From Acidobacteriota bacterium (lineage in GTDB: Bacteria; Acidobacteriota; Thermoanaerobaculia; Gp7-AA8): 64,000 nt of DNA. Shown here piece after piece: positions 10,301 to 63,733 of this stretch. Both the position numbers and the translations under genes were made by a program. The notes under the pieces were generated by a model that was not told the origin of the DNA, did no database searches, and saw nothing but the letters and a program-made list of their open reading frames with translations. The stretch spans positions 1-64,000 of the forward strand of contig QHVT01000006.1 in the NCBI GenBank assembly GCA_003223645.1. Direction: 5' to 3'. The number at the start of each line of letters is the position of its first letter. Position 1 is the stretch's first letter.

Positions 10301-10371
10301 GTGGAGCGGCGGCCGCTCTCGGCCGCCGATTTCTCGCGAGAGGTCGGCGGCCGAAGCGGCCGCCACTCCAC
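10301..10371. repeat. Palindromic repeat family B, copy 1
   Basis: A near-perfect 71-bp inverted repeat that starts GTGGAGCGGCGGCCGC and ends with its complement GCGGCCGCCACTCCAC. A second copy is at 22581-22652. It occupies most of the 430-bp gap between two convergent or co-directional genes; no gene is visible in that gap (10152-10584). Confidence 0.9.
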
Positions 10372-10377
10372 AAGTCC

Positions 10378-10486
10378 GTCATCCTGAGTCCGTCATCCTG
10401 AGGCGCGGAGACGCCGAAGGATCTCTAAATGCGAAACGTTTGCGTATTCAGAGATCCTTCGCTGTCTCACGCAGTTCAGGATGACG
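10378..10486. repeat. Palindromic repeat family A, copy 1
   Basis: Hairpin-forming element whose arms begin GTCATCCTGAG and contain GAAGGATCTC, with a short AT-richer centre. Related copies are at about 19090, 36443, 42088, 46798 and 60122. The left arm is partly duplicated here (GTCATCCTGAGTCC twice). Confidence 0.9.
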
Positions 10487-10584
10487 ATTTTATGAGCCGC
10501 GAGTTTTTGAGACGGTCTGCTGCGCCACCGCTTTTCTATACGGGTATACAAAAGCGGCAGCGATGCTGCCGCAGTCCAAAGGGG

Positions 10585-13239: not shown

Positions 13240-16200
13240 CTATCGTCCCGCTCCTTCACTTTCGAGCAGCCGCACCAGCTCCGATTGATATCGCTCGATG
13301 AACCGGCCGGCCTGCGCGGTCGCGAAGCCGGGCGAGGATCGTTCGGCGACGAACGACAGAGTAATCGCATTCCGCGGCGTTCCATCGGCGTTGCGTTTGA
13401 TGATCACGATCATGATGCGAGACGTCGGACGGTCGCGATCGATCGTCGAGAGCGTTCCGGTTTTCGCGTAGATCTCATACTGCGCGGCGAGCGGCGCGAG
13501 GCGGTTGCGAATGGAGATCGCCGTTCCGTCGTCGATGACGCGCTTGAGTCCCGTGCTGAGTTTTCGCGCGGCCGCGTTCGCGGCATCGTCGAATGCGGCG
13601 GCGCGCGACGGCAGCGGCACGGTCGCGCTGTCGCGCGCGACGACGTGCGGGACGACCGGCTTGCGCATCGCCCACGACGAGAACGCGGCGGCCGCGGCGA
13701 TGTTGGACCAGCGGCTCGATGCGCCGCCGAGGAGCACGGCGACGAACTCGCGGGTGTCGTGAATGCGATTCAGGCGAAGGTCGACCGCTTCCGGACTGAT
13801 CGCCGCCATCGGCTCGAGTCCGTTGCTCGCGCGCAGGTCGTCGCGCTCGTCGCCCGACCAGAACGACAGGAGGTAGCGTCGCTGATCGCCTTCGGGCGGA
13901 GGCGCTCCGGTGCGCGCGCCGAAGAGGTCGCGCATCTTCGTCGCCACCGGCTGCTGATGGAGATCGGCGAGATGGCTGGCGTGATCGCGTGAATTTTCTG
14001 TCGAGTCGGGGAGCGCGGGATAGCGGTTCCATGGCGTGGAGCTGCCGGTGAGCGACTCGCGTCCGCTGATCGAGCGTCCGCGTCCGTCGTCGGCGATCGC
14101 GTTCGCGTTCTCGCGCGCGAGGCTGAGGAACCCGAGTCGCGTGTGATAGCGATTGTCGGACGCGGCGAGATACGTGCTGAAGTCGATCCAGCGCGGGAAC
14201 GCCGCGACCTGCCACCCTTTCTTCGCCATCTCGACGCCGAACATTTGTCGCTCGTAGCAGCGCTGGTTCGCGACGCGGTCGCAGTCGCCGTTGTGCACGA
14301 AGAGCTGGCGATCGAGACTCGGATGAACAGTCAGCGCGGCTGTGGCCCAGAACGGCTTCGCCGCGGAGCCCATCTCGATCGCGGTGAAGTTGTGATCGAC
14401 GGCGTGGTGCGACGCGAGCGCGCGCGGCGCCGACGTTTCGAGCCAGGTGACCGGCGGCTCGAACTCGCGCCACGTTTGTTTCCCGTCGCTGGCCGTCTGC
14501 GAGCTCCATCGATCGCCGGACGCGGGCCGCGGCCACGAGCCCATCGCCAGCGTCTCGCCATTCGTCGCGCGCATGATCGTGATGGCGACGCGCGGCGGCA
14601 GCGCGGCCGGCGCGCGCTGTGCGGTCAACCCGCCGAATAGCTCGCGTCCCGCCGCTTCCGCTGTCGCCTGCGTCACGCGTTGCAGATCGGCATCGAGCGT
14701 GAGCTGCGTCGCGCGTGCGCGCTGTCCGCTCCGCACGCGAAACAGCGCCGCGCCGGCGTCGTGAATCCATCCGAGTCCGAGGCGGCGCGCGTCGACGCTC
14801 GGCGCGTAGACCCAATGTCCCATCACCCACGCGCGCCCGAGGATCTCGACCGGCCCGCTGCGCCCGCGAATGGACACCGGTTGCAGTTGCTCTTCCTTCA
14901 AGTCCTCGGCGAACGAATGCACGACATTGAAATCGGGATTGCCGGTGATCTCGTACGCCAGCTCCGGCTCGCCTTCGCTCTCGCTTTCGATGCGGTTGAT
15001 CGTGAAGACGCTCGGCCGCTCGCGCACCGCGCGCTCCGACTCCGCCTGCCACAGCTCGAACATGCGCGTGTAGTAGTCGTTCGGCGACGCGACGTCGAAG
15101 AATGCGGGCGGCAGCGACTCGCGCCCGCCGTTCATCCGCAGGCGCTCCGGCATGGCGTTGAAGCGCAACACTTCCGCTTCGAGCAGCGTCGCGCCCGACG
15201 GACGATCCGTCATCTTGCCGTCCGCGCCGCGGAAGGAGATCCGTTTCGTCGACGGATCGAAGTGCAGCGTGCCGTTATCCTGCAGCTCGTCGACGCGGCG
15301 GAGAAGGCGCGACCACGTCAGCACGTCGTATTCGTCGGAGCGAATCGCGCGCACCGAGCCGCGGACGACGAGCACGATGACGAGAATCGCCGGCAGCAAC
15401 GCGAGCGTCGCGACCTCGCGCGTGCGCAGCACGATCGCGAGCGGGATCGCGCAGGCGAAGGCGAGCCATGCGAAGTCTTTGGTCACGAACGCGGCGATCG
15501 CGCCCGCGGCGATGATCGCGCCGAATGCGAAGTGCCGCGCGCGCCGCCGTCCCGCGTACGCGAACGCCGGATCGAAGACATTTTTCCGTGTGACCAGCGC
15601 CTCCGGGATCGTGTCGGCCGAATCTGCGTGCAGGCGCGAAGACCAGAGCAGCGCCTGACACATCAGGCCGAGAAGAATGCCCCAGCGGACGATGTCGGAG
15701 TTCGACGACGTCGCGAGCAGCGGCAGGTTGCGTCCGGAGAACCAAAGCTGCGCGACGTTCATCGCGGCGTGCGCGGCGGCCTCGCCGAGGAGCGCGGCGG
15801 CGATCACGAGCGCGAGCATGTCGCCGGCGCGCAGACTCTTTCGGCGCATCAACAACAAAAGCGCGGGCGCCGCGAAGATCGCCAGCAGGAGCAATCCGCC
15901 GATCGCGCCATGCTCGCCGACGACGAAGAAGCTGTACACGCTGTCGTACTGAATCGTGTCCTGGCGAATGAACGACTGCTCGGCGGGCGCGCGATTGAAC
16001 CCGAGGCCGAACCATCCGCCTTTGCGGACCATCGCCAGGTGCTCCCACTCGTGCACCAGCGCATTGCGCACGTTTGCGGCGGTCACCGCTTTCGCGTCGC
16101 CGGCGGACGGAGCTTCGAGATCGAGCAGCCACTCCTGCGCCGACGAGCCGTGCTTCATCACCTCGACGCGGCTGAGAATGTGCTCCGTCATTCCGGGCGC

Positions 16201-18531
16201 GACCGCGTACGTTCCGAGGAGCGCCCAATACGCGACGGCGACGCCGGTGACGATGACGATCAGCAGCGTTCCGGCCATGCGCAGCGCCGGCGTGAGCAGC
16301 AGCAGCAACGCGAGCGGGAGGAGGAAGGCGAGGACCATGTAGATCGCGCCGAAGTCGCCGAGGGCGGCGAACATGACGGCGATCGGCGCGAAGGCGAGAA
16401 GGACAATCGCCGCGATCGTGTCGGGCAGCGCCGGCTCGGTGGCGACCGCTGCTCCGGCGTCGAGCACGCGCAACGCGTCCTCGGTGAGCGCGAGCGGACG
16501 CGCGAGCAGCACCAGCGCGGGAATGCCGAGAATCCAGAACGGCGCGACGATCTGCCGCGTGTACTCCGGCGCGAGGCGCGACAGCGCGAGGATGGCGATC
16601 GAGCCGGCGATCCAGATCAGAAACGGGCGTTTCAATGCCGGATGGCGCAACGCGCTCCAGACGTGAAGCACCGGCTGCGGGAGAATGGTGCGCGCGCCCC
16701 CGCCCTCAGGCGCGCCGGAGGCGCGCACCACTCCCGCGTCGCCGAGGTTGCGCCAGAACGTGCGCCCGATCTCGAGCATGACGCGATAGGGAATCTGCCA
16801 GAGCTTCGCGAGCGAGTTGCGGATCGGAAGCGCGCTGACGATCGCGATCGCGGCGATCAGGTAGACGACGAGCAGCATGCGATCGAGCGGAGACGAGCCG
16901 AATCGGGCGGCGGCATTCGGCAGCACCTGCTTCGGCATCACGACGAGCTCGATCGCGGAGAGCGCGGCGAAGATCAGCGCGACAAAAATCGTGACGTTCC
17001 TGCTGCGCGCGCTCGGCGGAACGCCGGGGCGGTGATGCAGCCACAGACGGACGGCGAGCGTGATCAGGCCGGGCACGATCACGAGCGACGCGAGCGTGCC
17101 GGAGAGACCCTTGACCGTCACTTCGTCGACCGCGGCCGGCGCGAGGAGATAACGCACCGCCAGCATCACGCGAAACAGCAGCAGCGTCCAGACGGCGACG
17201 AGCACGCCGCCGATGCACCAGAGATCGCGAAGGCGCAGCCGCTGCGCGCTGCCGAACGCGATCGATGCGACGAACAGCGCCAGCGCGAGCCACGCGGAGA
17301 CGAGCGCGAGGAAGAGAGCGCGCGGCGTCGGAAGATCGCGCACCATCGCGATGGTGAGGATCAGTCCGCGCGACGATGCCGCACGCAGCGGAATCTCGAC
17401 GGTGGAGAGTGTGCGATTCGGCTCCAGCGCCGCGGCGAGCATGCCACCGCTCTTCATCCATCGCGGCGCATCGGGTCGCGCAGCGGGGACGTGATCCCTT
17501 CCGTCGCGGAAGCGCGGCAGACCGGCGGGCGAGATCTGCACCGCCTCGTCGTGGCGAAAGTCGGGTGCGCCGTGGCCGAGCGGAAGGAGGAACGTGTTCT
17601 CGCCGACGGCCGCCTCGCGCGCGAAGGAGAGCGAGCTCGCGCCGTCGCGCAGCGGCGGCAGCGAAGTGGTGCGCGTCCATGGCGGCTCGAACGAGACGCG
17701 CGTCGCGCCGCCGTCGGCGGCGACGTGCATGCCTAAGCGCCGGCGCGGCCAGAGAATCTCGACCTTGGAAGAGGGCGCGATGGCAAGCTCGCGCCACGCT
17801 TCGCCGTCCATCACCAGCCGCAGCTCGTCATCGTCGGGCATGAGAATGCGCAGCGAGCCCGCCCACTCTTCGAGCGCGTGAATCGTCGCGAGATCGATCG
17901 AGCCGTCGCGGCGCAGATCGTTGAGACGCGGGACGAGCAGCGAGTCGAGCACGCGCACGCGCGTCGCGTGCACCGGCGGCGGATCGATGACGACGAGCGG
18001 CTCCGCGACCGGCGTGCGGCTGATTTTCAGTTTGCGCCGCCGCAGCCAGCCGGTGCGCGCGAGCTCGATCGAGAACTTGCCGATCTGCTTCGCGCCTCCG
18101 CCGAGCGTGATCTTGTCGCCGTTCGCGTACTCACTGCCGGCGCGCACGAGCGCTTCGCCGCCGCGCGTCCGCAGGTGCAGGTTGCCGTCCGTGCCCGGCG
18201 CGATCTGGACTTCCGGCAGGAAGTTGCCGTTCGGCCAGCCGAGGATCGCGGAGTGCTCCGCGCCACCGATCGAGAGCATGCCGGTCGTGCGATCCGACGT
18301 CTGCGCGCCGATCCACGCGACCTGCGTCGAGCGCGGCCACTCCGCGAGCGACGCCAGCGGCACGATGACGATCGCGATTCCGATCAACGCCGCCACGAGA
18401 ATCACGATCACCGGCGGGACGTGCCGCGAGTGCTGCAGCGACGGCAGCAGCTCTTCGCGGTGGCGAAACTCCACGAGCCACGCGATGAGAAGCGATGCAA
18501 AGACCACGGTCGCCAGGAGCGGCAGTGTCAT
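13240..18531 (-). CDS. SEDS glycosyltransferase-PBP transpeptidase fusion
   Basis: 1763 aa. Two helices (1-21, 40-62) are followed by a long beta-rich soluble region (64-400) and then about 16 membrane helices (404-1057). The stretch at 838-879 (GGWFGLGFNRAP, then QYDSVYSFFVVGEHGAIGG) matches the FtsW/RodA signature. D863 aligns with the catalytic Asp of SEDS polymerases. Residues 1060-1270 resemble a class B PBP dimerisation domain. The transpeptidase domain has SAAK (S1389, K1392), SDN (1458-1460) and KTG (1690-1692), so all three catalytic motifs are intact. FtsW/RodA and their PBPs are normally separate proteins; here one chain could polymerise and cross-link peptidoglycan. Residues about 601-613 (VVRASGAPEGGGA) are encoded by palindromic repeat D. 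First gene of a three-gene operon. Confidence 0.9.
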   Translation of the reverse strand: MTLPLLATVVFASLLIAWLVEFRHREELLPSLQHSRHVPPVIVILVAALIGIAIVIVPLASLAEWPRSTQVAWIGAQTSDRTTGMLSIGGAEHSAILGWPNGNFLPEVQIAPGTDGNLHLRTRGGEALVRAGSEYANGDKITLGGGAKQIGKFSIELARTGWLRRRKLKISRTPVAEPLVVIDPPPVHATRVRVLDSLLVPRLNDLRRDGSIDLATIHALEEWAGSLRILMPDDDELRLVMDGEAWRELAIAPSSKVEILWPRRRLGMHVAADGGATRVSFEPPWTRTTSLPPLRDGASSLSFAREAAVGENTFLLPLGHGAPDFRHDEAVQISPAGLPRFRDGRDHVPAARPDAPRWMKSGGMLAAALEPNRTLSTVEIPLRAASSRGLILTIAMVRDLPTPRALFLALVSAWLALALFVASIAFGSAQRLRLRDLWCIGGVLVAVWTLLLFRVMLAVRYLLAPAAVDEVTVKGLSGTLASLVIVPGLITLAVRLWLHHRPGVPPSARSRNVTIFVALIFAALSAIELVVMPKQVLPNAAARFGSSPLDRMLLVVYLIAAIAIVSALPIRNSLAKLWQIPYRVMLEIGRTFWRNLGDAGVVRASGAPEGGGARTILPQPVLHVWSALRHPALKRPFLIWIAGSIAILALSRLAPEYTRQIVAPFWILGIPALVLLARPLALTEDALRVLDAGAAVATEPALPDTIAAIVLLAFAPIAVMFAALGDFGAIYMVLAFLLPLALLLLLTPALRMAGTLLIVIVTGVAVAYWALLGTYAVAPGMTEHILSRVEVMKHGSSAQEWLLDLEAPSAGDAKAVTAANVRNALVHEWEHLAMVRKGGWFGLGFNRAPAEQSFIRQDTIQYDSVYSFFVVGEHGAIGGLLLLAIFAAPALLLLMRRKSLRAGDMLALVIAAALLGEAAAHAAMNVAQLWFSGRNLPLLATSSNSDIVRWGILLGLMCQALLWSSRLHADSADTIPEALVTRKNVFDPAFAYAGRRRARHFAFGAIIAAGAIAAFVTKDFAWLAFACAIPLAIVLRTREVATLALLPAILVIVLVVRGSVRAIRSDEYDVLTWSRLLRRVDELQDNGTLHFDPSTKRISFRGADGKMTDRPSGATLLEAEVLRFNAMPERLRMNGGRESLPPAFFDVASPNDYYTRMFELWQAESERAVRERPSVFTINRIESESEGEPELAYEITGNPDFNVVHSFAEDLKEEQLQPVSIRGRSGPVEILGRAWVMGHWVYAPSVDARRLGLGWIHDAGAALFRVRSGQRARATQLTLDADLQRVTQATAEAAGRELFGGLTAQRAPAALPPRVAITIMRATNGETLAMGSWPRPASGDRWSSQTASDGKQTWREFEPPVTWLETSAPRALASHHAVDHNFTAIEMGSAAKPFWATAALTVHPSLDRQLFVHNGDCDRVANQRCYERQMFGVEMAKKGWQVAAFPRWIDFSTYLAASDNRYHTRLGFLSLARENANAIADDGRGRSISGRESLTGSSTPWNRYPALPDSTENSRDHASHLADLHQQPVATKMRDLFGARTGAPPPEGDQRRYLLSFWSGDERDDLRASNGLEPMAAISPEAVDLRLNRIHDTREFVAVLLGGASSRWSNIAAAAAFSSWAMRKPVVPHVVARDSATVPLPSRAAAFDDAANAAARKLSTGLKRVIDDGTAISIRNRLAPLAAQYEIYAKTGTLSTIDRDRPTSRIMIVIIKRNADGTPRNAITLSFVAERSSPGFATAQAGRFIERYQSELVRLLESEGAGR
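16687..16734. repeat. Palindromic repeat family D, copy 1, inside the SEDS-PBP gene
   Basis: GC-rich inverted repeat (GGTGCGCGC...GCGCGCACC) in the linker between membrane helices of the fusion protein. It adds about 16 codons (VVRASGAPEGGGARTI) without breaking the frame. The other copy is at 20261-20322 in the M61 peptidase gene. Confidence 0.8.
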
Positions 18532-18674: not shown

Positions 18675-20453
18675 ATGCCGCATTATCTCGTCAGCTGGAC
18701 GAACCCGCACGATCGGCTCCTCGAGATCACCCTTCGCTTCACCGCACCCGCCGATACGCCGCGTCTGCTTCTGCCGGCCTGGCGTCCCGGCCGTTATCTC
18801 ATTCAGAACTACGCGGCGAACGTGCGGGAGTGCACAGCGGGCGAGCATCGCATCCGGAAAGAGGCGAAGTCTTCATGGCGCGTGGATGCGCGGGCGGGGG
18901 AGGCGGTCACGGTCACGTATCGCTACTACGCGGGCGTGCTCGATGCCGGTTCGTCGTTTCTCGACGACGACGAGGTGTACATCAATGGCTCGAATCTGTT
19001 CATGCTCGTGGACGGACTGCGCAGCGAAGAGCATCGACTGACGATCGCGGCGCCGGCGGAGTGGAGGATCGAGTCGCAACTGCAATACGCTGTCATCCTG
19101 AGTCGCGAAGACGGCGAAGGACCCCCGGCCGGCAGCGCGAGCAGCGTCCTTTCGCCGGGGGTCCTTCGCTCCGCTCAGGATGACACGAATTACGTTGCCC
19201 GCGATTACGACTATCTCATCGACTCGCCGATCATCGCCGCCGCGACCATGACGCGGCATACCTTCGACGAAGCGGGGGCGCGGTTTCACATGATCTATCG
19301 CGATGACCGGGGGTTCGACACGGAGCAGTACATCGAGCCCACGCGCGCGATCATCCGCACGCAGGCGCAGCTCTTCGGCGGATTGCCGTTCTCCGAATAT
19401 CGATTTCTCTATCACGTCCGCGAGAAATGGCACGGCGTTGAGCATGAGGACTCGTGCTCGATCATCCTCAAGCGCAGTGCCCTCGGCACCGCGGACGACC
19501 GCACGCTGTCCATCAGCGCGCACGAGCTGTTCCACGCATGGAACGTAAAGCGGATGCTGCCGGCCAAGTTCCATCCCTACGATTACTGGAACGAAACACC
19601 GACGCGCCTCTTGTGGGCGATGGAAGGGCTGACGTCGTATTACGGCGATCTGTCGCTCGTGCGCGGCGGTGTGTGGGATGAGGTGCGGTATCTCGAGCAT
19701 CTGCGCAAGGAGATCGAGACGCTCGAAGGTCTGCCCGCGCGGTTGCATCTGCCGCTTTCGCAGGCGAGCTTCGACGGCTGGCTCAGCGATCCCGCGCAAA
19801 TGCACGATCACGCGAACGCGTGGTACTCGTTCTACACGAAGGGGGAGATCGTCTCGATGCTGCTCGATCTGACGATTCGCCGCGCGACGAACGGCGCGAA
19901 GTCGCTCGACGACGTGCTCCTGCTGCTGTGGGACAAAAAGATTCTCGAAGAGGACGCGGTAGAACGGGTCGTTGAGCAAGTCGCGGACGTCGGCGACTTC
20001 TTCGCGCGCTACGTCGACGGAGTCGAGCCGCTGCCGTACGCGGAATTGTTCGCCGCCGCCGGTGTTGCATTCGCGTCCGCTCCGCGCCCGGGCTCCTCCC
20101 TCGGCGCAAAGGTGAAAATGGTCGACGGTTTGCTGACAATCGAAAGCGTGCTGCGCGGCGGCGCGGGAATGGACGCGGGACTCCTGCCGAACGACGAGAT
20201 GCTCTCGCTCGACGGCACGCGCATCAACAGCGAGGGCGCACTGGAGACAGCGCTGGCCGGAGTGGTGCGCGCCTCCGGCGCGCCCCCGCCCGGAGACGCG
20301 CCGGAGGCGCGTACCACTCCAGTTGAGCTCCTGATCTCGCGCGCCGGCGTCTTGAAGACGCTCGCGCTCGAAGCGCGTCCCGATCCGCGTCCGCAGATTA
20401 CGCTGCGCATCACCGGGCCGAGCGAGCTGAGAAAACAATGGCTATCGAATTGA
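18675..20453 (+). CDS. M61-family metallopeptidase with PDZ domain
   Basis: 592 aa from ATG 18675. That start gives the family N-terminus (MPHYLVSWTNPHDRLLEI); the upstream ATG at 18633 lies in a repeat. Zinc motif HELFH at 283-287 with the third ligand E317 (AMEGL), as in glycyl aminopeptidase M61. A PDZ domain spans about 470-570. No signal peptide is seen. Residues 139-172 are encoded by palindromic repeat A and residues 530-548 by repeat D. Both are in frame and fall outside the catalytic core, so the enzyme is probably active. Followed by a short membrane protein gene that overlaps its 3' end by 16 nt. Confidence 0.92.
   Translation: MPHYLVSWTNPHDRLLEITLRFTAPADTPRLLLPAWRPGRYLIQNYAANVRECTAGEHRIRKEAKSSWRVDARAGEAVTVTYRYYAGVLDAGSSFLDDDEVYINGSNLFMLVDGLRSEEHRLTIAAPAEWRIESQLQYAVILSREDGEGPPAGSASSVLSPGVLRSAQDDTNYVARDYDYLIDSPIIAAATMTRHTFDEAGARFHMIYRDDRGFDTEQYIEPTRAIIRTQAQLFGGLPFSEYRFLYHVREKWHGVEHEDSCSIILKRSALGTADDRTLSISAHELFHAWNVKRMLPAKFHPYDYWNETPTRLLWAMEGLTSYYGDLSLVRGGVWDEVRYLEHLRKEIETLEGLPARLHLPLSQASFDGWLSDPAQMHDHANAWYSFYTKGEIVSMLLDLTIRRATNGAKSLDDVLLLLWDKKILEEDAVERVVEQVADVGDFFARYVDGVEPLPYAELFAAAGVAFASAPRPGSSLGAKVKMVDGLLTIESVLRGGAGMDAGLLPNDEMLSLDGTRINSEGALETALAGVVRASGAPPPGDAPEARTTPVELLISRAGVLKTLALEARPDPRPQITLRITGPSELRKQWLSN
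19090..19186. repeat. Palindromic repeat family A, copy 2, inside the M61 gene
   Basis: The complete hairpin (GTCATCCTGAGTCGCG... to ...CGCTCAGGATGACA) lies within the open reading frame and is translated as about 32 residues (VILSREDGEGPPAG to VLRSAQDD). Its length is a multiple of three. Confidence 0.9.
20261..20322. repeat. Palindromic repeat family D, copy 2, inside the M61 PDZ domain
   Basis: Inverted repeat GAGTGGTGCGCGCCTCCGG...CCGGAGGCGCGTACCACTC, encoding about 19 extra residues (VVRASGAPPPGDAPEART) in the loop before the last PDZ strands. Confidence 0.9.
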
Positions 20454-22288: not shown

Positions 22289-22375
22289 GTGCGGTTGCTC
22301 GGTTACGCGGTTGCTCGGTCGCGCGGCAAAGACGATTCGCCGCGCAACCGCGTAACCTGGCAACCGCGCAACCAC
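22289..22375. repeat. Inverted repeat family F, copy 1
   Basis: Arms built from GGTTGCTCGGTTACGCGGTTGC and its complement (CGCAACCGCGTAACC). Related copies are at 57697-57768 (between mutS2 and dnaG) and 63656-63733. Lies directly upstream of tRNA-Leu. Confidence 0.8.
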
Positions 22376-22382
22376 ACCACAG

Positions 22383-22497: not shown

Positions 22498-22750
22498 TCC
22501 CGCGCCCGAGCCCGCGCCCGCTTCCGCGCCCGGGGTGGGCGGCGAGCGAAGCGACGACTGAGCCTTCAATCACAAAACTAGTGGAGCGGCGGCCGCTCTC
22601 GGCCGCCGACCTCTCGCGAGAATCCGGCGGCCGAGAGCGGCCGCCGCTCCACAGGCATACGTGCGAGCACACACGGAATCAGCGTTGACGCTGTACTCCG
22701 TTGCCCCCACCCCGGGCGCGGAAGCGGGCGCGGGCGCGGGCGCGGGGCAC
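22498..22750. repeat. Nested inverted repeats with family B copy 2
   Basis: A GC-rich CGCGCCCGAGCCCGCGCCC stretch at about 22498-22543 has an inverted counterpart at about 22703-22750. Between them, 22581-22652 is family B copy 2 (GTGGAGCGGCGGCCGC and its complement). No gene is visible in 22471-22886. Confidence 0.75.
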
Positions 22751-36442: not shown

Positions 36443-36541
36443 GTGTCATCCTGAGCCGCGAAGACGGCGAAGGATCCCCCGCCTACGGAGCGTCAAGCGT
36501 TCTAGCGCCGGGGATCCCTCGCTGCGCTCGGGATGACACAT
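36443..36541. repeat. Palindromic repeat family A, copy 3
   Basis: GTGTCATCCTGAGCCGCG...GCTCGGGATGACACA, an intergenic hairpin between the oxidoreductase and CsbD genes. Confidence 0.9.
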
Positions 36542-39188: not shown

Positions 39189-39290
39189 TTTGTGGCGACC
39201 GCTGCCCTCAGCGGTCGCGGCGGCGCGAGCGCCGCTGGCGCCGCCATTAGGCGGCGCCGTGACCGCTGAGGGCAGCGGTCACCACAACAG
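39189..39290. repeat. Palindromic repeat family C, copy 1
   Basis: TGTGGCGACCGCTGCCCTCAG...CTGAGGGCAGCGGTCACCACA with a GGCGGCGC/GCGCCGCC inner stem. Copy 2 is at 46905-47000. Confidence 0.9.
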
Positions 39291-39362
39291 CGGTCACCAC
39301 AACAGCGGTCACCACAACAGCGGTCACCACAACAGCGGTCACCACAACAGCGGTCACCACAA
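39273..39362. repeat. Tandem repeat, six 15-bp units
   Basis: Six perfect head-to-tail copies of CAGCGGTCACCACAA. The unit is the right end of repeat C, so it grew by slippage or unequal crossing at that end. Together with repeat C this fills the 450-bp gap 39107-39559, which has no gene. Confidence 0.95.
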
Positions 39363-39559
39363 TTCTCATCAGGTGGGGAGGATCGATTCAGTACGTCGCC
39401 TGCCACGCCCGCGCCTCGGCCTGTTCGAGCGTTTGCGACATCTGCGCGCGGCGGCTCCGATAGAGATCATGCTCCGAAGCCCTCAATGGATTTGGCATTG
39501 TCACGATGGACACGGATGCGGTTCATGACACCGATCGCCTTATACTCTGCGCGTCCGAA

Positions 39560-42087: not shown

Positions 42088-42191
42088 GTGTCATTCCGAG
42101 CCGCAACGACGGCGAGGAATCCCCGGCCGAAGCACGATCAACGCTCCGTCGGCGGGGGATCCTTCGCCGTCTATGCGGCTCAGGTTGACAC
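42088..42191. repeat. Palindromic repeat family A, copy 4
   Basis: GTGTCATTCCGAGCCGC...GCGGCTCAGGTTGACA, somewhat diverged, between the two PilT-type genes. Confidence 0.8.
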
Positions 42192-46880: not shown

Positions 46881-46904
46881 GACTGTGAAAATTTCCAAGA
46901 GCTT

Positions 46905-47000
46905 TGTGGCGACCGCTGCCCCCAGCGGTCGCGGCGGCGCTTGCGCGCCGCTGGCGCCGCCATTAGGCGGCGCTGTGACCGCTGAGGCAGCGGTCACCAC
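46905..47000. repeat. Palindromic repeat family C, copy 2
   Basis: TGTGGCGACCGCTGCCCCCAG...CTGAGGCAGCGGTCACCACA, without the tandem extension seen at 39273. Confidence 0.9.
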
Positions 47001-57696: not shown

Positions 57697-57768
57697 GGTT
57701 TCGCGGTTACGCGGTTACGCGGTTGCGCGGCGGTGCTGCGTGACCGCGCGACCGCGAAACTGCGAAAC
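57697..57768. repeat. Inverted repeat family F, copy 2
   Basis: GGTTTCGCGGTTACGCGGTT...CGACCGCGAAACTGCGAAACC between mutS2 and dnaG. As part of the operon transcript it would fold into a long hairpin, which may tune dnaG expression. Confidence 0.8.
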
Positions 57769-57769
57769 C

Positions 57770-60115
57770 CTACGTGTCCAACACCGCCACCGTAGCACCA
57801 TCCCCACCTTCGTTTTCCGCGCCGGGTCTCCAAGAACGCACGGCCGGATGTTTTCGCAGGTGCTCGCGGATCGCTTTGCGCAGGGTGCCGGTGCCGAAGC
57901 CGTGGATGATGCGCACGGCTTGTTTGCCTTCGAGCAGCGCGCGGTCGAGGAATTTGTCGGATTCGTCGAGCGCGTCGTCCACGCGTTGACCGATCAGGTT
58001 CAGCTCCGCGGCGATGACGACTGTGTCGTCGCTTCGCTGCATCGCACGCGTGCGCGTTGGTGCGGCGGGTTTGGCGCTCGCCTTCGTGATCAGGTCGCGC
58101 ACGTCGACCGTCATCTTTCTTCCGCTCACGAGCAGAACGGCTTTGCCTCCGTCGATCGAGATCACATCGCCGGTCACTTTGAACTTGCGATGTTCCGCGC
58201 GGTCGCCGACATGCACTTCGCGCTGTTCCTCGGGGATGAACTCGAGCGCTTTGTCGATCGACTTCGTCACGCTCTTCACCACCTCAGGCGCGTTGACATT
58301 CGAAGGCCGCGACTCGCGCAGCGACTTGATCTCGCTCGCCAGCGTGCGCGTGACGTCGTCACGCAGACGGTCCAGCTCCTCGCGGTACTTCACGGCGAGG
58401 GAGGCGCGCTCTTTTTCCAGCTGCGCGAGTTTGTCGGCGAGAGACGCGCGCTCGCTTTCGAGCTGCTGCTGCGACGATGCGAGCGCGTCCTGCTGCGCGA
58501 CGATCTCGGACATCTTCTTTTGCAGCGTCGCGAGCAGTGAGTCGGTTTCGCCGTAACGTTCGCCGAGGCGCTCGCGTGCGCCTTCGATGATGGACGAGGG
58601 GAGGCCGATCATCTTCGCGATCTCGATGGCGCGGCTGCGTCCGGGGATGCCGGTGATCATGCGATACGTCGGCTGTCCGGTCGCGGAGTCGAACTCCATC
58701 GACGCGTTGACGATGCGCGTGTCGTTGACCGCGAAGCTCTTGAGCGCGGAGAGGTGCGTCGTGACGATGACGAGCGCGCCGGTCTCGAGCAGATGCTCGA
58801 TGATGCTCGCCGCAAGCGCGGCGCCTTCTTCGGGATCGGTGCCCGATCCCAATTCGTCGAGCAGCACGAGCGAGCGCTTCGTGGCGCGGCCGAGGATGCG
58901 CTTGAGGCGGACGAGATACGCCGAGAACGTCGAGAGATGTTCGAGGACGCTCTGGTCATCGCCGATGAGAACGTGCAGCGCGTCGACGCACGGCAGCACC
59001 GTGCCGTCGGCGGCGGGAACGGGGAGGCCGCTCATGCCCATCGCGACGAGCAGTCCCGCCGTTTTCAGCGCGACGGTTTTTCCGCCGGCGTTGGGACCGC
59101 TGACGACGAGCGCGGGGGAGTCCGCATTGAGATCGATCGTGAGCGGAATGACGCTGCGATCCGATTCTTCTTCGCCGAACGCCTCGCGTCTCGCCTCCGC
59201 GAGCCGCTCGTCGAGCAGTGGATGACGTCCGTCGATGATGTGCAGCGCGCGGTCGGCGCTGAATGCCGGACGCGAACCGTGGGTCGTGTCGTGAAAGACC
59301 GCGCACGCCTGCAGCGCATCGAGCTCGCCGGAGACGCGCACCGCGTCGAGGATCGCTTCGCTCGCATCGAACAGCGTCTGCGCGATGTACTTCGTGATGC
59401 GCGCGATCTCTTCGCGCTCCTGGATCAGGAGATCGGCGAGGTCGTTGTTCAACTCGATCGCCGCCATCGGCTCGATGAAGAACGACGCGCCCGATCCCGA
59501 TCGCTCGTGCAGGATGCCGGGCACGGCGTTGCGATGATCGCTGCGCACGGGGACGCAGTAGCGATCGCCGCGCATGACGATGAGCGGCTCCTGAATCGCG
59601 TCGATGCTGCGATTCATCACGTCATTCAATGTCCGTTGAATCGCCGCGCGCTTCGCGTGCACCTTCGAACGGATCGCGCGCAATTCGACCGACGCGTCTT
59701 CGCGCAGCTTACCGTCGCGCGTGAAGTACTTGTTGGTCTTGGCGATGACTTCGCCGAGGTCGGGGATTTCGGTCGCGAGGGTCGAGAGGCGAGGGAAGCC
59801 GCTGGTGCGGACAAGCGCCTCGCGCATGGCCTGCGTTGCGCGTACGGCGCGTACTGCATGCCACGATTCATCGAGCTCGAGCACGCTCTCGCGTTGAAAG
59901 AGCGGCGCGAGCTCCGTGAGTCCCGCCAGCGGCAGCAGCCCCTCGGTGTGCACGTACCGCACGATCTCGCTGAGATCGGCCTGCGCGTTTTCACACGCGG
60001 CGATCGTGGAGTGCGGACGGCGCCGCGCGACCGCACTTTTTCCCGGCGCGCTCTTCGCTTCCATGGCGATGAGCGTGAGGACGCGATCAAACTCGAGGGT
60101 GCTTAGCGAATCCAT
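57770..60115 (-). CDS. mutS2: MutS2 ATPase/nuclease
   Basis: 781 aa. MutS core with Walker A GPNAGGKTVALKT, then LVLLDELGSGTDPEEGAALA (Walker B) and VTTHLSALKSFA. A coiled coil at about 510-600. A C-terminal Smr domain (LNLIGQRVDDALDESDKFLD, VRIIHGFGTGTLR). MutS2 suppresses recombination and, in some bacteria, rescues collided ribosomes. Placement right after rpsU, a ribosomal gene, fits the latter role. Confidence 0.96.
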   Translation of the reverse strand: MDSLSTLEFDRVLTLIAMEAKSAPGKSAVARRRPHSTIAACENAQADLSEIVRYVHTEGLLPLAGLTELAPLFQRESVLELDESWHAVRAVRATQAMREALVRTSGFPRLSTLATEIPDLGEVIAKTNKYFTRDGKLREDASVELRAIRSKVHAKRAAIQRTLNDVMNRSIDAIQEPLIVMRGDRYCVPVRSDHRNAVPGILHERSGSGASFFIEPMAAIELNNDLADLLIQEREEIARITKYIAQTLFDASEAILDAVRVSGELDALQACAVFHDTTHGSRPAFSADRALHIIDGRHPLLDERLAEARREAFGEEESDRSVIPLTIDLNADSPALVVSGPNAGGKTVALKTAGLLVAMGMSGLPVPAADGTVLPCVDALHVLIGDDQSVLEHLSTFSAYLVRLKRILGRATKRSLVLLDELGSGTDPEEGAALAASIIEHLLETGALVIVTTHLSALKSFAVNDTRIVNASMEFDSATGQPTYRMITGIPGRSRAIEIAKMIGLPSSIIEGARERLGERYGETDSLLATLQKKMSEIVAQQDALASSQQQLESERASLADKLAQLEKERASLAVKYREELDRLRDDVTRTLASEIKSLRESRPSNVNAPEVVKSVTKSIDKALEFIPEEQREVHVGDRAEHRKFKVTGDVISIDGGKAVLLVSGRKMTVDVRDLITKASAKPAAPTRTRAMQRSDDTVVIAAELNLIGQRVDDALDESDKFLDRALLEGKQAVRIIHGFGTGTLRKAIREHLRKHPAVRSWRPGAENEGGDGATVAVLDT

Positions 60116-60121
60116 GTTGTT

Positions 60122-60217
60122 CCGTCATCCTGAGCCGCGAAGACGGCGAAGGATCTCTCAATGCGAACGATTGCGTATTCTGAGATCCTTCGCCGTCTTC
60201 GCGGCTCAGGATGACGG
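60122..60217. repeat. Palindromic repeat family A, copy 6
   Basis: GTCATCCTGAGCCGCGAAGACG...CGTCTTCGCGGCTCAGGATGAC, the most perfect copy (about 40-bp arms), between the rpsU terminator and mutS2. Confidence 0.95.
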
Positions 60218-60220
60218 GAT

Positions 60221-60256
60221 AAAACAAAAACGCCCGCGATCCATTCGCGGGCGTTC
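60221..60256 (-). terminator. Intrinsic terminator after rpsU
   Basis: On the minus strand: CGCCCGCGA, 5-nt loop, TCGCGGGCG, then TTTTTGTTTT. Separates rpsU from mutS2, so expression of the rest needs read-through or another promoter. Confidence 0.92.
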
Positions 60257-63655: not shown

Positions 63656-63733
63656 GATTACGGGTTGCTCGGTTGCGCGGTCACGCGGTTGAATGCCGCG
63701 CAACTGCGCGACCGAGCAACTGCGCAACCGTTT
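63656..63733. repeat. Inverted repeat family F, copy 3
   Basis: GGTTGCTCGGTTGCGCGGTC...GCGACCGAGCAACTGCGCAACC between two minus-strand genes. Confidence 0.8.

Follow-up and report, generated by a model that had tools for sequence, protein, structure and literature searches.

Two palindromes within the frame of a peptidase gene

Can mobile palindromic DNA settle inside a gene and become part of its protein? The question is raised by an M61-family peptidase gene in the window, by which we mean the whole 64-kb stretch of DNA analysed, on contig C44 of a 6.38-Mb Acidobacteriota genome in 51 contigs. An initial annotation had located two different hairpins in this gene, one of family A at 19090-19186 and one of family D at 20261-20322. 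Both are present, and their boundaries proved to be off by a few bases:

18675..20453, + strand: M61-family (glycyl aminopeptidase-like) peptidase gene with both inserts within it (PF17899 and PF05299 over cut-off; PDZ_2 weak)
19091..19186, + strand: family A palindrome, 96 bp, in-frame peptide VILSREDGEGPPAGSASSVLSPGVLRSAQDDT (absent from 16 aligned relatives; folding; loop pLDDT 35-42)
20259..20320, + strand: family D palindrome, 62 bp, two inverted REP-like hairpin arms, in-frame peptide GVVRASGAPPPGDAPEARTTP, in the PDZ-like C-terminal part of the M61 protein (relatives; folding; loop block pLDDT 56-61)

The gene is a single uninterrupted reading frame of 606 codons, in which Peptidase_M61_N and a full-length M61 domain are recognised, along with a weak match to PDZ. 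The inserts had been described as frame-keeping additions of about 32 and 19 residues that spare the HELFH site. This agrees with what we found: one open frame runs through both elements, which are 32 and about 20 residues long (the D copy having the form GGAG...CTCC over its 62 bp), and HELFH is untouched by either.

The initial annotation had also proposed an orthologue alignment and a protein model, and both were carried out. A search for M61 across 60 genomes, our own included, gave matches in 28, and in the alignment both the A and the D segment were missing in 16 of 16 relatives from other genomes. The matches of the nearest genomes are interrupted at the A site (e.g. residues 1-136 and 169-590 for G001, the closest relative and of the same genus). 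Compared with G001, the peptidase has gained a net 30 residues at the A site (from 7 to 37) and 14 at the D site (from 9 to 23); these gains are smaller than the elements themselves, so a small part of the local sequence was replaced at both sites. The segments in repeat-free orthologues, or a frameshifted pseudogene, had been named as contrary evidence; no relative has the segments and the frame is intact. An AlphaFold model of the protein, built from seven sequences, had a mean pLDDT of 78.8, falling to 35-42 over the A segment and to 56-61 around that of D, with well-predicted strands and helices adjoining. The model fits a location of both inserts in exposed loops, which are predicted with low confidence.

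A repeat scan of the window and, for D, an analysis of frames revealed further copies, together with palindromes of another family, E:

10391..10488, + strand: family A copy, intergenic
36444..36539, + strand: family A copy, intergenic, 82% identity to the M61 copy
42095..42190, - strand: family A copy, intergenic
46798: partial family A-like place
60117..60222, unstranded: family A copy, both arms well matched
about 16673..16734, - strand: second window copy of D, one arm within 3 mismatches, in-frame peptide AGVVRASGAPEGGGARTILP in a 1763-aa ORF at 13240-18531 (a spanning relative was sought and none found)
10301..10371, unstranded: family E palindrome, TGGAG-tagged, of the family that flanks the genome's RAYT
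22581..22652, unstranded: family E palindrome

The five additional family A places that had been claimed are therefore there, one of them (46798) being partial. D also occurs in the ORF neighbouring the M61 gene and is thus not confined to the latter. Both M61 copies fold far more stably than shuffled sequences (D, -61 kcal/mol, z -10.2; A, -66.2 kcal/mol, z -8.7). The arms of D, E and A are each predicted to form a stem with an unpaired 5' end; in the D arm, nine unpaired nucleotides (TGGAGTGGT) precede a 7-bp stem, and the E arm is similar. As RNA, the D stem is nearly perfect over ~25 bp (-61 kcal/mol) and lies within mRNAs of housekeeping genes, where it is a potential RNase III substrate.

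Family D resides mainly in genes and family A mainly between them

The D arm had 216 genome matches (111 + 105) and the A arm 194 (96 + 98) at up to 3 mismatches. The reversed control patterns had 0 in both cases, which excludes chance. The classification covered about 590 kb of the genome, namely the DNA around copies among the matches listed, so that low contig numbers are over-represented. Limited to copies with at most 3 mismatches in at least one arm, the classified set consisted of 89 D copies (75 of them two-armed, 14 one-armed) and 48 of family A. Genes were called with a home-made hidden Markov caller based on codon usage, in which the repeats were masked and so had no vote.

By this procedure 70 of the 89 D copies lie in frame in coding sequence and 10 are intergenic. 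Six more have coding sequence on one side, two lie between opposed genes and one lies between same-strand genes with differing frames; on inspection these last nine are at gene ends, and no gene is clearly broken. At least 60 bp of coding sequence is present on both sides of 60 of the 70 in-frame copies, and less than 60 bp on one side of the other 10. The 48 A copies comprise 27 that are intergenic, 13 that are one-sided, four in frame, two with differing frames, one between opposed genes and one at an edge. Thus, D is mainly resident in genes, whereas A is mainly intergenic. The claim that A is otherwise intergenic is broadly borne out, the M61 copy being an exception, and the proposed count of both families inside genes sets them clearly apart.

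When 150-bp flanks were scored singly, 50 D copies were clearly coding on both sides; strand and frame agreed in 40 of these, the frame was discordant in six and the strand in four. Longer flanks raised the discordance (agreeing/frame-discordant/strand-discordant, 44/11/6 at 210 bp and 45/18/9 at 300 bp), probably in part because they cross gene ends more often.

Host genes of D and their empty sites in relatives

Ten D-bearing proteins were assigned with NCBIfam and Pfam: TilS, glycerol kinase, AroD-AroE, histidine ammonia-lyase, an M3 peptidase, a gamma-glutamyltransferase, an MsbA/SmdA-like ABC transporter, a RecB/AddA-like helicase-nuclease, an NtrC-like regulator and a PEP-synthase-like protein. 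The glycerol kinase gene holds two D copies. In AroD-AroE the element sits at the domain junction, and in the MsbA-like transporter between the membrane part and the ATPase part.

For 45 D copies, the search for relatives spanning the site covered G001 and G009, and also G011 in the case of some copies. A spanning relative was found for 35 copies and none for ten. The D peptide was missing in 35 of 35, with the flanks aligning in one frame, although some of these comparisons are with distant paralogues or run through variable linkers (e.g. the PEP-synthase-like and amylase-like proteins). The 35 sites include partial copies, four being one-armed and one a 33-bp remnant. One-armed remnants that keep the frame were observed at C34:35981 (MenE-like), C21:611065 (mutase-like) and C8:132753.

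The net gain is usually smaller than the element. The shortfall is exactly 8 bp in seven genes: HutH (59 to 51), GlpK (71 to 63) and five with 62 to 54 (GT39, NtrC-like, a methyltransferase, C4:17410 and C22:56831). In most other genes it is about -6 to 26 bp, and one insertion, at C1:44640, is apparently clean (66 bp gained, 65-bp element). A fixed replacement of 8 bp was considered as a rule and rejected, as it fits the seven genes and fails the others; we retain it only as part of the phase-targeting explanation weighed below. Target-site duplications of 3 bp were seen in 1 of 75 copies against 1.5 expected, and of 4-6 bp in none; duplications of 2 bp numbered 10 against 4.8 expected. No common target motif was found at the D insertion sites.

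Reading frame and length of D are biased

The D arms are stop-free in every frame, and yet a single frame, reading GVVRASGAP...APEARTTP, is used by 60 of the 70 in-frame copies (binomial against 1/3, p = 2e-19). The length of the element is biased as well: among two-armed copies, a length of 2 mod 3 is found in 46 of the 58 that are in frame compared to 3 of the 16 others (Fisher p = 1.5e-5). Either bias can result from selection favouring the mildest peptide. If insertion were uniform and purging complete, main-frame coding copies and non-coding copies would be expected as 0.90 x 1/9 to 0.10, taking the coding share of the sampled DNA, or ~1:1. The observed numbers are about 60 and 19, which points either to phase-biased insertion or to faster loss of non-coding copies; simple purging alone may thus be insufficient to account for the distribution.

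Purifying selection on the D peptide was considered and rejected. An excess of third-position changes (66 synonymous, 42 nonsynonymous) was gone once the outermost base was left out because it is possibly not part of the element. The remaining counts, 27 synonymous and 41 nonsynonymous, give no significant protein-level constraint on D (p = 0.12).

D spread recently in one lineage

The 216 D arms of this genome face 0 in G001 and 0-2 in 98 other relatives, the level of the reversed control. D copies differ from their consensus by ~3% within the arms. This low divergence, together with the absence from relatives, indicates that the D burst is recent and confined to the lineage as far as sampled.

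The distribution of A across the family is patchy: besides the 194 arms here, there are 734 in G010, 143 in G007, 118 in G012, 61 in G003 and 0-15 in the remaining 34 among 40 listed genomes. G010, a 5.6-Mb genome of the same family, shows the largest A expansion seen, and G001 has none. E arms number 234 here, 176 in G006, 8 in G002 and none in the remaining 17 among 20 listed genomes. In viral contigs, no exact D or A arm was found.

A single RAYT is flanked by family E

A search for a RAYT-type transposase, also proposed at the outset, turned up exactly one, which is flanked by E and not by A or D. It is the sole Y1_Tnp gene of the genome, encodes 181 aa and scores 103.5 bits against NF047646 (cut-off 80); its best solved relative is the TnpA-REP 4er8 (E = 0.00025). 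One E dimer lies upstream of it and three lie in tandem downstream. E is thus a REP-type family with its own RAYT. The C-terminal ~30 codons of the gene are themselves E palindrome sequence (L009:1423-1968; C4:53044-53589), the transposase carrying its own repeat as protein. In the E-rich relative G006 there are four Y1_Tnp matches, and none is closely flanked by E dimers in its fragmented assembly.

Even when up to 4 mismatches are allowed, the 5 kb surrounding the RAYT contain no D arm. The arms of D and E nevertheless have their first five bases, TGGAG, in common, and their alignment beats 2960 of 3000 composition shuffles (40 score as well), a modest similarity. From this tag and the likeness of the arms, D is plausibly served by the same RAYT as E. 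The A arm has no resemblance to the arms of D or E. A RAYT for family A was also sought. The surroundings of 14 Y1_Tnp loci (L231-L244) from six relatives held no A arm with up to 6 mismatches, and genomes that lack A can have Y1_Tnp genes too, so a link between A and a RAYT was not found and this candidate was dropped.

Certain E copies have host sequence repeated in inverted orientation at their flanks, such as CTCGACACGTCCT ... AGGACGTGTCGAG (L009:1297-1400; C29:315493-320493 near 2157), as if the flank had been copied backwards during insertion.

How D came to lie in frame

We consider it probable that D represents a recent lineage-specific burst of REP-dimer-like elements that are translated where they are frame-neutral. 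A and D are two unrelated-looking mobile palindrome families, each element made of two REP-like hairpins in inverted orientation. D has multiplied recently and, as far as sampled, in this lineage alone, moved, we infer, as single-stranded hairpins by the genome's one RAYT. It would insert at many sites and leave no target-site duplication, a few bases of the site being replaced in most cases. Frame-shifting insertions would be lost along with their hosts, and insertions with a net length divisible by three would survive because the arms are stop-free and the main frame encodes a small flexible linker, which would fit loops and interdomain linkers. A would follow the same route only rarely. Judging from their sequence, the D and A inserts would be translated.

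A different origin of the bias is that D insertion is itself non-random, coding DNA being targeted in a fixed codon phase and a fixed length being replaced, such that 62-bp copies would be automatically frame-neutral and D specialised for genes. The single phase of the in-frame copies, their predominant 2 mod 3 length and the seven genes with a net gain exactly 8 bp under element length all speak for such targeting. However, elsewhere the loss ranges from about -6 to 26 bp net and one insertion looks clean, neither a common target motif nor a target-site duplication was found, and selection for the mildest peptide per arm would yield the same phase and length bias. We therefore regard phase targeting as possible but rather unlikely. 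In the same vein, D may be a selfish element specialised for coding sequences, with its length, stop-free frames and codon-phase-biased insertion making most insertions frame-neutral and genes its main home; this we put forward only tentatively.

That D is instead retained for a function, as a regulatory mRNA hairpin (e.g. an RNase III site) or as a useful linker, is suggested by so strong a hairpin (-61 kcal/mol, 25-bp stem) recurring in many housekeeping mRNAs. Yet D is missing from the same-genus genome and the other relatives, its host genes are unrelated and its peptide is without significant constraint, which makes a retained function improbable. The palindromes might also escape translation through ribosome bypass or RNA splicing, as mentioned for hairpins of Magnusiomyces mitochondria in passages of PMC6649704, given that a stem-loop of such length and stability hinders translation; but bypass needs neither a length that is a multiple of three nor freedom from stops, and the observed sites keep the protein frame across the insert, leaving this explanation very little likelihood. 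We give equally little credence to the view that the in-frame excess is artefactual and was produced by the home-made gene caller or by pseudogenes. Long spurious frames do arise in GC-rich DNA, and the 10 in-frame copies with short coding sequence on one side would be open to that doubt, but 35 genes are confirmed by aligned relatives and ten by curated families, and A came out mostly intergenic under the same procedure. The burst of REP-dimer-like elements remains the reading that we prefer.

Relation to known palindromic elements

In-frame palindromes in genes have been described as the RPE of Rickettsia (Ogata et al. 2000, 2002, as cited in passages of PMC10969869 and PMC3733652) and as the palindromic elements of Wolbachia (in part of PMC4224334). 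Those elements and the ones described here are alike in being dispersed palindromes that lie in frame in unrelated functional genes; the ones described here would likewise be read as peptides and spread selfishly. The Rickettsia-like reading proposed in the initial annotation holds for D, with 70 of 89 copies in frame, none clearly disruptive, and empty sites in all 35 genes with a spanning relative, and only weakly for A (4 of 48 in frame); the likeness is one of mode of life. D differs from the RPE in its size (62 bp against about 150 bp), in its host, a 6.4-Mb Acidobacteriota lineage known from metagenomes, and in being in frame in about four fifths of sampled copies compared to 'nearly half' of the copies in R. 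conorii, a figure given in a passage of PMC10969869.

With REP/BIME elements and their RAYT, the families share a hairpin with an unpaired 5' tag, inverted dimers and one RAYT with flanking palindromes (E), although such flanking is seen for E and not for D (0 arms within 5 kb). REPs inside genes have already been reported in several species, most in Opitutus terrae and R. conorii, according to passages of PMC3733652. The same passages describe GTAG and CGTC REP super-families with RAYT transposases; the tag of D and E is TGGAG, and D is for this reason not filed as a GTAG REP. Furthermore, REPs are mainly extragenic and D mainly intragenic, while A, with 27 intergenic and 13 one-sided copies of 48, matches the REP habit. 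D also resembles MITEs in being short, with inverted-repeat ends and in high copy, but it lacks target-site duplications of at least 3 bp, and a transposon bearing the ends of D was not found.

A literature search with the exact D peptide and DNA strings returned no paper, and A strings returned unrelated papers only. For in-frame palindromes in Acidobacteria, the search gave nothing beyond the TIR-flanked transposases mentioned for this group in passages of PMC3733652. With in-frame palindromes in Rickettsia and Wolbachia and intragenic REPs elsewhere, the kind of element is already known; the differences here are the phylum, the 6.4-Mb genome, the intragenic share, the strong frame and length bias and the restriction to one lineage.

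The best-known in-frame palindromes belong to genomes that are reduced and host-bound, and weak selection there could be the reason why they are tolerated. The many recent in-frame D copies in a 6.4-Mb genome, in genes such as tilS, glpK and aroDE, point to a route to new protein segments that does not need genome reduction. Dozens of sites with phase, length and empty-site data make frame-aware insertion a testable question, and the same holds for the handling of 25-bp hairpins in housekeeping mRNAs by ribosomes and RNases.

Other repeats of the window

An Rfam scan of the window gave one tRNA and nothing else. A further palindromic family, built in 8-bp steps (GGTTGCTCGGTTACGCGG...), has three copies in the window, at 22293-22381, 57697-57777 and 63663-63697. 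At 39258-39377 and 39190-39287, a tandem repeat with a 15-bp unit (CAGCGGTCACCACAA) adjoins an inverted repeat akin to one at 46883-46946.
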